Part shown: piece by piece, positions 40,204 to 48,111 of the stretch
Layout: each line of letters begins with the position of its first letter
Numbering within the stretch: the first letter of the stretch is position 1
From: a virus
IMG/VR virus record: IMGVR_UViG_3300012000_000021
Location: 1 to 54,258 of that record
Strand: one strand, 5' to 3'
Length of the DNA stretch: 54,258 bases
Program-made: the position numbers and the translations under genes
The notes under the pieces: generated by a model
Database searches by the model: none
The model's input: the letters and a program-made list of their open reading frames with translations, nothing else
Told to the model about the DNA's origin: nothing

Positions 40204-41085
40204 ATGACTACAGAAAACAAATCCCTATTCATTCCTACATTGGAAAAGACATCGCACTACATACCACGCACCTTTACTGGTGGCGTTACAGAAGATGCCA
40301 TGTACGACTTCGCACTTGCTCACAACATGAACATCTTGATTGAGGGCGATGCTGGAACTGGTAAAACAACTTCGGCACTTGCTTACGCATCAAAGCGACA
40401 CATGAACTTCTTCGCTGTTCCATGTAACTCAGCGATCGACTTCACTCAGTTAATCGGTGGCTTGTTCCCTGATGCTGACGGCAAACTAAAGTGGGTTGAC
40501 GGCGCGATCACAAAGATCGTTCGTGAGGGTGGCTTGCTACTTATCAACGAACTCAACAACGCACCTAAGAACCTGTCTCAGTACCTCATGTCACTACTCG
40601 ATGATCGCCGTTCAATTACCCTCATGTCACATGACAACGAAGTGATTACGGCTCACCCTGATCTTCTAGTGGTTGCAGATCAGAATCCAAACTATCGTGG
40701 AACTCAATTACTAAATGAGGCGTGGAAAGATCGCTTCGAAATTAAATTGCGCTTCGATTACGACAACACCATTGAGAAGAAGATCATCACATCTTCATCT
40801 CTACTGGAACTCGCAAACGGAATGCGATCAACATCTCGCAGAGACGATCACGCATCAGATCGTGGAACTATCTTCGAGACACCTGTATCACCACGCATTC
40901 TAAAAACATTCGAGAAGTTAGCAAAGGGCTTGTCATTCGATTTCGCTTGCGATGTATTCGTAAACAATTTCACAGATGAAGAGCGACCTGCGGTCAAGAT
41001 GCTTCTAGAAGGTACTTCATACAACATTCGAGAAGAACTCGGACTCGATGTTGATGCGATCACAACTGAACACGATCAGGCTTAA
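40204..41085 (+). CDS. MoxR-type AAA+ ATPase, 293 aa
   Basis: Walker A GDAGTGKTT (about residues 48-56); CNSAIDFTQLIGGLFPDADG is the MoxR-specific loop. Walker B GGLLLINELNNAPKNL has Asn where most have Asp before the catalytic Glu. Sensor 1 LLVVADQNPNYRG and the arginine region WKDRFEIKLRFDY follow. It is the partner of the VWA protein immediately downstream; such pairs remodel or insert cofactors into target complexes. Leader GAAAACGGAAACC precedes ATG 40204. Confidence 0.87.
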   Translation: MTTENKSLFIPTLEKTSHYIPRTFTGGVTEDAMYDFALAHNMNILIEGDAGTGKTTSALAYASKRHMNFFAVPCNSAIDFTQLIGGLFPDADGKLKWVDGAITKIVREGGLLLINELNNAPKNLSQYLMSLLDDRRSITLMSHDNEVITAHPDLLVVADQNPNYRGTQLLNEAWKDRFEIKLRFDYDNTIEKKIITSSSLLELANGMRSTSRRDDHASDRGTIFETPVSPRILKTFEKLAKGLSFDFACDVFVNNFTDEERPAVKMLLEGTSYNIREELGLDVDAITTEHDQA

Positions 41086-41087
41086 CA

Positions 41088-43088
41088 ATGTGTGCCTGTG
41101 GTAAATGTCCGTCATGCAAACAATGGGGAGTAACAATGAACTATGACGAAGCAATCGAAGAGTGGGAACTCGACATTCTTGGTGAGACTCGTGAGTCACT
41201 ACGATCACAAGCGATCAAGGCAGAAGAGAAGAAACAACGACTAGAGCGATTCACACAATTCTTCGGTCGTGTTAATTCTGCATTCACTTTCCGCAAAGTG
41301 ATTGTGACTGTTGAGAACTCTCCTATGGAAGCACCTGCTTGGTCAGGTGCATCAACTGTCACTTTCAACTCTCGTGTCATTGGTGATCTCAATGATGCTA
41401 AATCAATCGCTGGTATCAAGGGGCTTGATCTTCACGAGATCAGTCACATTCTTTATACATCTCGTGAAGGATCAGAAATCTTTGATTATGTACGAGATAA
41501 CAATTACTTCATGGCATACAACGCACTTGAAGATCAGAGAATCGAAACTCTCTTTACATCAAAGTATCCGTCAACGATCGACTGGTTTACCGCCACGATC
41601 TTGATTCACTTCGTTGATAACAAAGAGGCTTTCACTAACTCTTATCCGCTATTGCGTGGTCGTAGATACCTGCCTGTTGATCTAAGAGCGCAATCTCGTA
41701 ACGCCTATCCTGAACAAGATCAGATCGATGAAATCTGTGCAGTAGTCGATGAGTACCGCACTCTTCTATTCCCTGCTGATACTGAAAAAGGAAAGGAACT
41801 TATTGCGCGATTTAATGAGTTACTTCCAAAAGGTAATGGCAACGGCTCAGGTAATGGCGAAGGTGGGTCTGTGCGACCTGCTGAGGCTGGTGAAGAGGGC
41901 GATGTAGTCATTCGTATCAATGACCCATTCGGTCATGGCAAGCGACCTTCTGAGGGCTTGGAATCGTCTGCTAATTCACGACCTGTTCCACCAAAGAAAC
42001 AAGAGAAAGATCGTGATCGCTCACAACAACTCGACAAAGAAGATGATGCAGAACTGGCTGAGCAACTGAAATCAAAACCTGTTATCGATGTTGACATCAA
42101 CGACATTGATTTTGATTTTGATTTCGATGATGCAGATTCAGATTCAGATCAGGATTCAGATCAAGATTCTGATTCACATCAACCTTCTGATTCTGCTGGT
42201 TCTTCTGCTGGCGAATTAATCGACACATTGATTGGTGATCTATTAGAAAACATTCTTGATTCTAATGAAACCGAAATCAATGACATCTTGCGACAGATTG
42301 GTGGTTTACCTTCTCTTACTACCAACAATTCAAAAGAGCCTGAGTTAGATTCATTTCATGATCTTGCCCCTGATGCAAATACATTTCAAGCATCGTTGTC
42401 ATTCGGTCGTGAGTTAGAGCGATTGAGATCATCGTTCGACCCTGCATGGGATAGATACGAGTCACAAGGTCGCTTGTCTGCACATCGCTACTTGCGTGGT
42501 GATGAACTCGATACTGTATTCGATCAATGGAATGAAGGTCGTGAAGATGCGACTGAGATCGAATGCGTGATCTTGTTAGACAACTCAGGTTCAATGTCAG
42601 GACACAAAGCCTCTAGTGCGTACAAAGCCATGTACGCGATTAAGAAGGCACTTGATCGTGTTAACGCAAATACAACTGTTATCACTTTCAATGATCGTGC
42701 TAACACCCTGTATCGTGCAACTGATCGCGTTGGTAACACAATTCGTGATGCTGGTACTGGTGGTGGAACAAATGCTGACGGCGCAATTAAGTACGCAACT
42801 AAACTGCTTGCCGAAACTGAGAAGCCTGTTCGTATCTTCTTCGCAATTACTGACGGAGAATGGTCGGGCGATCAGAAAGACAATCACGAAACAATCAAGC
42901 GCATGGCTCGTGCTGGTGTGCTTACTGCATTCGCGTACATTCCTGAAAGTACTGAACCTGTAGAACTAAATGCACAGAAGTCTCACTATTGCGAGATCGC
43001 TTCTGTTGTTCGTAATCCATTCGATCTTGTTTACATGGCGAAATCAATCGTGAAGTACGCGATCTCTCGCCGTCTCGTAAGCAACTAA
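41088..43088 (+). CDS. HExxH metallopeptidase-like plus VWA domain protein, 666 aa
   Basis: Residues about 30-240 contain a zincin-like motif GLDLHEISHILYTS (H116-E-x-x-H120) and YNALEDQRIETLF. Residues 330-370 are an extreme Asp/Ser stretch. Residues 493-660 are a VWA domain with an intact MIDAS: ECVILLDNSGSMS (D498, S500, S502), GGGTNADGAI (T561) and FAITDGEW (D589). The design is like DUF2201 metallopeptidase-VWA proteins that partner MoxR ATPases. A second start, ATG 41136, has GGGGAG 5 bases upstream. The extra 16 residues carry a CxCxxCxxC motif. Confidence 0.85.
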   Translation: MCACGKCPSCKQWGVTMNYDEAIEEWELDILGETRESLRSQAIKAEEKKQRLERFTQFFGRVNSAFTFRKVIVTVENSPMEAPAWSGASTVTFNSRVIGDLNDAKSIAGIKGLDLHEISHILYTSREGSEIFDYVRDNNYFMAYNALEDQRIETLFTSKYPSTIDWFTATILIHFVDNKEAFTNSYPLLRGRRYLPVDLRAQSRNAYPEQDQIDEICAVVDEYRTLLFPADTEKGKELIARFNELLPKGNGNGSGNGEGGSVRPAEAGEEGDVVIRINDPFGHGKRPSEGLESSANSRPVPPKKQEKDRDRSQQLDKEDDAELAEQLKSKPVIDVDINDIDFDFDFDDADSDSDQDSDQDSDSHQPSDSAGSSAGELIDTLIGDLLENILDSNETEINDILRQIGGLPSLTTNNSKEPELDSFHDLAPDANTFQASLSFGRELERLRSSFDPAWDRYESQGRLSAHRYLRGDELDTVFDQWNEGREDATEIECVILLDNSGSMSGHKASSAYKAMYAIKKALDRVNANTTVITFNDRANTLYRATDRVGNTIRDAGTGGGTNADGAIKYATKLLAETEKPVRIFFAITDGEWSGDQKDNHETIKRMARAGVLTAFAYIPESTEPVELNAQKSHYCEIASVVRNPFDLVYMAKSIVKYAISRRLVSN

Positions 43089-45759: not shown

Positions 45760-45924
45760 ATGGGATACGCACAGATCGTTCGTAGGGTAGAAGCCCACGA
45801 ACTAACTAATTGTGATGATTGCGGGAATAACGAACTTACTTCATCAGGTAAATACTTCGAAGAACTAGGTAGTCAAAAGATACTGTGGTTCTGCTTTAAC
45901 TGCATTCATAATCCAACACAGTAA
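45760..45924 (+). CDS. 54-aa zinc ribbon
   Basis: GGAGATAACCA precedes ATG 45760. ELTNCDDCGNNELTSSGKYF and ILWFCFNCIHNPTQ give CxxC...CxxC. It is the last gene before the structured gap at 45929-46186. Confidence 0.62.
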   Translation: MGYAQIVRRVEAHELTNCDDCGNNELTSSGKYFEELGSQKILWFCFNCIHNPTQ

Positions 45925-45928
45925 CTTT

Positions 45929-46186
45929 ATCGAGTAGGGGTCAACGCAGGGTTAAACGACAGGGTTAATTCATTTCCCTATCTCCTTACCTGCTAAGGGC
46001 GATCATGATCGGCTTCTATGATTGCCGTAGTCGTACCTGCCCCTACTCGATTTCACTATTGATAGAGATCGTCAACACCTAGCAGACTACGGCAGACTGA
46101 AAAGGTGTTATGAAAATCTTGCAAGATCGTTGATCGATTTCAGACCAACGCACAACATCGTTCTACTTCTTGACGATCTCTATCAA
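45929..46186 (+). ncRNA. Candidate structured RNA with three interlocking inverted repeats
   Basis: The gap between two operon genes carries perfect arms. P1: ATCGAGTAGGGG (45929-45940) with CCCCTACTCGAT (46040-46051). P2: GCCGTAGTC (46024-46032) with GACTACGGC (46085-46093). P3: TTGATAGAGATCGTCAA (46059-46075) with its exact complement (46170-46186). The 5' arm of P2 lies inside the P1 loop and its 3' arm inside the P3 loop, so the stems interlock like linked pseudoknots. Local hairpins CGATCATGATCG (46000) and ATCTTGCAAGAT (46116), an extra stem CACCT/AGGTG (46076, 46103), and CAGGGTTAA repeated at 45947 and 45960 add to this. No reading frame of note. No known RNA family recognised. Confidence 0.6.
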
Positions 46187-46216
46187 CTATTTAATTAACC
46201 TAGAGAGGATTACAAC

Positions 46217-46390
46217 ATGGATACACCACACCCATTCACACTAGAAGAAGTAAATGCAATCCTTGTTGCACGATTCAATGGCGAATCGTTGCAGAGCGTT
46301 GCTGATCGATTTAACACAAATCGTGTACTGATTAGAAGAATAGAAAGTAAATACATGAACCGATTCAAAGTCGGACACACTTACAATTAA
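46217..46390 (+). CDS. Helix-turn-helix protein, 57 aa
   Basis: AGAGAGG precedes ATG 46217. FTLEEVNAILVARFNGESLQ, SVADRFNTNRVLIRRIESKY reads as a short HTH (helix, GESLQSVADRFN turn, recognition helix). It may bind DNA or the adjacent structured region. Small size suggests a regulator like those of mobile elements. Confidence 0.62.
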   Translation: MDTPHPFTLEEVNAILVARFNGESLQSVADRFNTNRVLIRRIESKYMNRFKVGHTYN

Positions 46391-46401
46391 GGAGAAACTA
46401 A

Positions 46402-46494
46402 ATGACATCAATTCCACAAACTAAATGTAATGACTGCTTGGAATGGGTTGAGTACGAAACTGTCCACGAATGCAAAGGAGAAATAAATGAGTGA
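46402..46494 (+). CDS. 30-aa zinc-knuckle peptide
   Basis: GGAG lies 7 bases before ATG 46402. PQTKCNDCLEWVEYETVHEC has CxxC...HxxC ligands. It overlaps the next gene by 8 bases. Confidence 0.55.
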   Translation: MTSIPQTKCNDCLEWVEYETVHECKGEINE

Positions 46495-46828
46495 ACTATC
46501 ATCACACCAAACTGATCTGATTAAGTCGATCACGATCGCTAACGAGTTTCTAAAGATCGTTCGCGGATTCAAAGTAGATTCTGATCGCAAAGACAGTCTG
46601 CCTCAGGAGATCAAGGAGTACCTAGCCAATGAACACCTGAACTCAATCATGGAAGATCAAGAGATCGAACCTGAGATGTTGATTTGGGGATTCCTGCACA
46701 TGATCGAGATTCTCTTGAAGTATGCAGAGTTAGACCCTGAGGACTTAACGAGTGTCATGGATTCGTTTATGAAGTATGTGATCGAAAACCCTGACCAATA
46801 CAGAGATCGGAGTAACGATGAAGATTGA
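46487..46828 (+). CDS. Acidic helical protein, 113 aa
   Basis: GGAG precedes ATG 46487. Helical throughout (SHQTDLIKSITIANEFLKIV; PEMLIWGFLHMIEILLKYAE) and net acidic. Overlaps the WhiB gene by 11 bases. Family not recognised; an interaction with WhiB or RNA polymerase is conceivable. Confidence 0.6.
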   Translation: MSELSSHQTDLIKSITIANEFLKIVRGFKVDSDRKDSLPQEIKEYLANEHLNSIMEDQEIEPEMLIWGFLHMIEILLKYAELDPEDLTSVMDSFMKYVIENPDQYRDRSNDED

Positions 46829-48075: not shown

Positions 48076-48111
48076 GCCCCTAGCCCCTGATCGGGCTAGG
48101 GGCTATTTTTT
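48076..48111 (+). terminator. Strong intrinsic terminator of the rightward operon
   Basis: GCCCCTAGCCC (48076-48086) pairs perfectly with GGGCTAGGGGC (48093-48103) around 6 bases, followed by TATTTTTT. It separates the early operon from the integrase unit. Confidence 0.85.

Follow-up and report, generated by a model that had tools for sequence, protein, structure and literature searches.

The gap and its inverted repeats

The window, meaning the whole 54,258 nt stretch of viral DNA that was analysed, contains a gap between a 54-aa and a 57-aa ORF, both on the + strand (Table 1). The first-pass annotation had described this gap as free of genes and flanked by genes of the same strand, and both statements hold. 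A coding function for the gap was considered and rejected, as a long ORF is absent and the indels between relatives have lengths not divisible by three.

Three perfect complementary pairs, P1, P2 and P3, had been reported in the gap. All three are present, though P2 is 10 bp long and not 9. Copies of CAGGGTTAA are found at 45947 and 45960. The fold of the region 45929-46186 falls far below that of shuffled sequences on either strand (z -6.1 on + and -7.4 on -). Among 500 dinucleotide shuffles of this region, none contained a 17-bp arm, arms of 12 bp or longer occurred in one, and arms of 10 bp or longer in 17. On these counts, P1 and P3 are beyond what is expected by chance, and P2 alone is near it.

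In the first-pass annotation, P2 bridged the loops of P1 and P3, giving an interlocked chain of three helices. In five relatives that were aligned for P2, 9, 6, 7, 9 and 5 of the 10 pairs can form, and P2 pairs perfectly in the window alone and is not conserved by compensation. The 3' arm is missing from many relatives, namely those that lack module B, the element that includes P3, and the 5' arm overlaps the 3' strands of two helices of module A, P4 and P5. Judged from these alignments, the P2 pairing is coincidental. The interlocked topology was rejected because P2 is unconserved and P3 belongs to an optional, separate module; the inverted repeats are real but the three helices are not one structure. 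The gap contains two modules, A (45929-46051) and B (46059-46186), and the true pseudoknot, which was missed in the first pass, lies inside P1.

Table 1. Features of the gap and of the ORFs on either side of it (window coordinates)
Feature	Position	Strand	Remarks
Upstream ORF	45760-45924	+	54 aa; cysteine-containing, zinc-ribbon-like; stop 4 bases before P1
Gap	45925-46216		between the 54-aa ORF and the 57-aa HTH ORF, both +
Module A, pseudoknotted RNA	45929-46051	+	covariation; match to model R1 at 45928-46052
P1, 5' strand	45929-45940	+	pairs with 46040-46051 (12 bp, perfect in window); two-sided changes in 11/12 pairs
GUYAA	45940-45944	+	near-invariant, 34-35/35 at four of five positions; outside first search pattern
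Pseudoknot, 5' strand GCAGG	45946-45950	+	pairs with 45989-45993 in loop of CCUU/AAGG hairpin
Variable hairpin AGGG...CCCT	45961-45979	+	between pseudoknot strands; shorter or absent in other phages
Hairpin CCTT/AAGG	45984-45998	+	loop holds pseudoknot 3' strand; CC..AAGG visible in most sequences, helix shifts
Pseudoknot, 3' strand CCTGC	45989-45993	+	covariation
Conserved block AAGGGCGRUCAUGA	45995-46008	+	AAGGGCGRTCA part required by main search pattern
P5, GCGR with YCGU	45999-46002 / 46031-46034	+	100% paired; R-Y change on both sides of one pair
P4, variable hairpin CGGC/GCCG	46010-46027	+	two-sided changes in each of three counted pairs; 77% paired
Conserved block AGYCGUAYCUGC	46029-46040	+	required by main search pattern
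P1, 3' strand	46040-46051	+	covariation in both alignments
P2	46023-46032 / 46085-46094	+	10 bp, perfect in window; bridge of the first-pass annotation
Module B, optional stem-loop	46059-46186		outer stem P3; inner helix 46128-46132 / 46146-46150
P3	46059-46075 / 46170-46186		17 bp, perfect in window
Downstream HTH ORF	46217-46390	+	57 aa; weak Sigma70_r4 match below Pfam cut-off

Fold and strand of module A

A search for homologous intergenic regions and for covariation had been advised with the first-pass annotation, and related phages were found to keep module A with compensatory changes. In an alignment of 45 sequences, 93.6% of the cells of 22 pairs were paired, compared to 75.4% after shuffling, and the covariation score was 0.521, compared to 0.194 for shuffled sequences and no more than 0.132 for slid controls. 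A model-based alignment of 35 sequences (A4), which also includes L055 and L104, two divergent GC-rich members, gave a score of 0.634, compared to 0.202 for shuffled sequences and no more than 0.159 for slid controls; the covariation counts take related sequences individually, the events are not independent and the slid controls retain this relatedness. The excess of compensatory changes over both types of control, together with the G-U/A-C asymmetry described below, strongly supports the identification of module A as a structured RNA, not a chance feature or a DNA site.

Module A is about 90-145 nt long (91-144 nt when measured with the closing stem). The blocks required by the search pattern are invariant partly by construction, and P1, the pseudoknot, GUYAA and P4 lie outside the pattern. 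The pseudoknot helix (45945-45950) has two-sided changes in all six columns, with variants that include CATAGG/CCTATG in L005 and CACAAG/CTTGTG in L015. P5 is also present in relatives that were found via a protein rather than the pattern, and P4 is seen in nearly all members. The first positions of P4 (window 46009 and 46028) show an unusual coupled choice in A4, where they are mostly U/U (17/35) or C/G (15/35).

The pairs of P1 also reveal the strand on which the fold is selected. G-U cells outnumber A-C cells by 35:3 in alignment A1 and by 25:5 in A4 (p 1.6e-4), where the ratio for the pseudoknot is 13:4. Because G-U is far above A-C in P1, module A acts as an RNA of the + strand, and the ratio does not fit a DNA palindrome. 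A DNA-level recombination or replication site, which was among the initial suggestions, would be in keeping with the long inverted repeats, the integrase gene in the window and the patchy occurrence of module B. However, the choice of G-U rather than A-C in P1 reflects RNA-level selection on one strand and disfavours such a site for module A, and module B is found only after module A. We therefore regard a DNA site as extremely improbable.

Distribution and hosts

The neighbouring protein (window 46487-46828) led to 40 loci in viral contigs. At 37 of these, the DNA matches the gap region, in some cases partially, and the other three begin <450 nt upstream of the protein. Every close relative whose sequence spans 45929-46051 retains module A. 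The pattern AAGGGCGRTCA-N15-45-AGYCGTAYCTGC recovered 61 viral loci, many of them in otherwise different phages. With relaxed patterns, one further genuine member, L104, was gained, and the other loci obtained in this way were without the motif when inspected by eye. Variants of module A were found in about 50 distinct phage sequences, and a covariance model, R1, has exactly one match in each of 38 phage records.

WhiB, which is a marker of actinobacterial hosts, is encoded in 26 of 28 carrier records, and a class II ribonucleotide reductase (RNR) is encoded in 24 of the 28. From this gene content, the carriers are very likely actinobacterial phages. In 84,980 bacterial genomes, the exact pattern had three matches, all missing the P1 stem when examined by eye, and two of these genomes have no match to R1. 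A search of 395 genomes from a single actinobacterial class gave no copy either, which is weak evidence given that the filters were strict and there was no positive control. Among cultured phages, blastn returned only weak matches that were judged to be due to chance, and R1 has no match in phages DSL-LC01 and Gaia, the RNRs of which are closest to that of the window. A group of large (about 155 kb) mycobacteriophages has a weak 34-nt match (E 0.6-7) to the 3' half of module A in L104 (L104:11313-11415), located inside a gene near the left end of those genomes.

Module B

Module B was found in eight phages, namely the window, L003, L004, L005, L006 and L011, and the more distant L064 and L066, and is always directly 3' of module A. 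All cells of its outer stem and inner helix are paired (100%), and five pairs have two-sided changes. The module is cleanly missing from L002, L008, L012, L013 and L014, where module A runs straight to the next ribosome-binding site, and L007, L009 and L010 are also without it. In L003 (2664-2810), TTYCACTA-like direct repeats are present at the ends of module B, an arrangement that an insertion or a duplication might leave. Despite these repeats, a free mobile element was rejected as an explanation, as module B was never found apart from module A.

Genomic context

The stop codon of the upstream ORF is 2-12 nt before module A in most phages, and this spacing leaves little room for a promoter belonging to module A. 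Phages of the window's lineage have the next start codon, usually that of a small HTH gene, 19-27 nt 3' of the RNA. In a second clade, module A is followed by an intrinsic terminator and then by a converging class II RNR gene. In the GC-rich L055 and L104, module A adjoins tRNA-like genes. Two tRNA genes are within about 2.2-2.9 kb of module A in L058, and a TROVE/Ro60-like protein, a weak YrlA-like RNA, tRNA genes and module A are close together in this contig (L058:4966-7832). L010 has another gene between module A and the HTH gene, and in L061 no HTH gene follows directly. Module A is always on the mRNA strand, and both the upstream and the downstream genes differ between phages.

The main rival to a trans-acting RNA is a role in cis in the mRNA, as a 3'-UTR or intercistronic element that blocks exonucleases, insulates the translation of the next gene or stabilises the upstream message. 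The short distance from the upstream stop, the constant mRNA strand and the start codon or terminator that comes after the RNA are all consistent with this role. However, the flanking genes differ from phage to phage and offer no common target in cis, the core shows far more conservation than simple stabilisation by a hairpin would require, and several such transcripts are already closed by terminator hairpins. Hence, we consider a cis-acting element less likely than action in trans, though it deserves the most weight among the alternatives.

A riboswitch-like leader for the HTH/WhiB genes had been suggested in the first-pass annotation, and a riboswitch or protein-binding leader controlling these downstream genes was considered. 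In its favour, an HTH gene usually comes next in the window's lineage. This suggestion fared poorly when further phages were compared, as what lies downstream may be an HTH gene, a terminator and convergent RNR gene, a tRNA-like gene or another ORF. No expression platform was seen, and L010 and L061 depart from the expected gene order. Because module A lies so close behind a stop codon, and because in other phages it ends the operon, before the terminator, or adjoins tRNA-like genes, a leader is very unlikely.

Comparison with known RNA families

The window has no match in Rfam 15 at the gathering score, and the region containing the motif has matches only at E>=0.38, which is chance level. 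Eight diverse carrier loci also gave no match at gathering over the motif; two sub-threshold matches to Phe_leader overlap or adjoin it in L049. No description of the module A RNA was found in the open-access literature, and a description elsewhere is possible. As none of the known families tested was matched, module A was filed as a new RNA family, and by the measure of Rfam 15 and the open-access literature it seems to form a phage RNA class of its own that is new. The initial proposal of a new structured RNA that includes a pseudoknot and belongs to no recognised family is thus borne out by the covariation, the G-U/A-C asymmetry and the Rfam searches. Mimicry of, or complementarity to, 16S or 23S rRNA by the conserved blocks was rejected, as the longest shared words are 7-9 nt, the same as for shuffled blocks.

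GOLLD and ROOL are orphan structured phage RNAs that include pseudoknots and are often found beside tRNA islands (PMC12286853). Module A resembles them in being an orphan, structured, pseudoknotted RNA of phages. However, GOLLD and ROOL are several hundred nt long and differ in sequence and structure, and the much shorter module A matches neither covariance model.

Bacterial Y RNAs (YrlA, RF02553) are likewise small structured RNAs, and the carrier L058 encodes TROVE just upstream of module A as well as the YrlA-like RNA. A phage Y-type RNA that binds the Ro60/TROVE protein was therefore considered. However, the motif itself does not match the Y RNA covariance model, and the Ro60 partner is missing from 37 of the 38 carrier records, including every other large record (up to 141 kb). 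This possibility is largely refuted, and we give it very little credence.

Other small ribozymes are recognised by a pattern of compact core, variable helices and changing neighbours. Module A conforms to this pattern, with a compact pseudoknotted core in which unpaired bases are conserved, helices that vary and neighbours that change, and the same likeness extends to riboswitch aptamers. A new self-cleaving ribozyme, in which the conserved core and pseudoknot would be catalytic and would cut the transcript, was therefore weighed. However, module A matches no Rfam ribozyme or other family of this type, the gene downstream is not constant, the closing stem is long and no cleavage site was located in these data. 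Self-cleavage is accordingly possible but rather improbable.

Proposed role of module A

The best explanation, to which we assign a probability of about one half, is that module A represents a new family of small structured RNA in actinobacterial phages that is encoded within an operon and probably acts in trans. The comparisons establish the fold, the strand, the distribution and the position of module A. In this fold, P1 encloses GUYAA, the pseudoknot formed with the loop of the CCUU/AAGG hairpin, the short invariant GCGR/YCGU helix and a variable hairpin. Module A would be transcribed within the operon, as suggested by a start only a few bases after the upstream stop and by the terminator or start codon that often comes next. 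Release of the RNA from the operon transcript may follow, after which its rigid core, conserved in sequence, could bind a putative conserved partner, either a host protein or an RNP, during infection. Some phages add a second stem-loop, module B, directly downstream.

The core is conserved across AT-rich and GC-rich phages while the neighbours change, which points to a partner or an activity that is conserved in actinobacterial hosts. More tentatively, module A may belong to an undescribed RNA class, built around the pseudoknotted core and with a second RNA domain in some phages, that serves actinobacterial phages in trans for host takeover or counter-defence or that is a new ribozyme. In environmental actinobacterial phages, module A appears to be a conserved RNA gene overlooked by current annotation, and its consensus is sharp enough for synthesis, probing and use as bait.

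Other features of the window

Two further features were recorded elsewhere in the window. At 48076-48105, just upstream of the tyrosine-type integrase gene, GCCCCTAGCCCC...GGGCTAGGGGC makes up a strong terminator-like hairpin, and a T-run comes after it. A CobS-like AAA ATPase is encoded beside a CobT/VWA-like protein at 40204-43088, and the RNR that this phage also encodes is of the B12-dependent class II.
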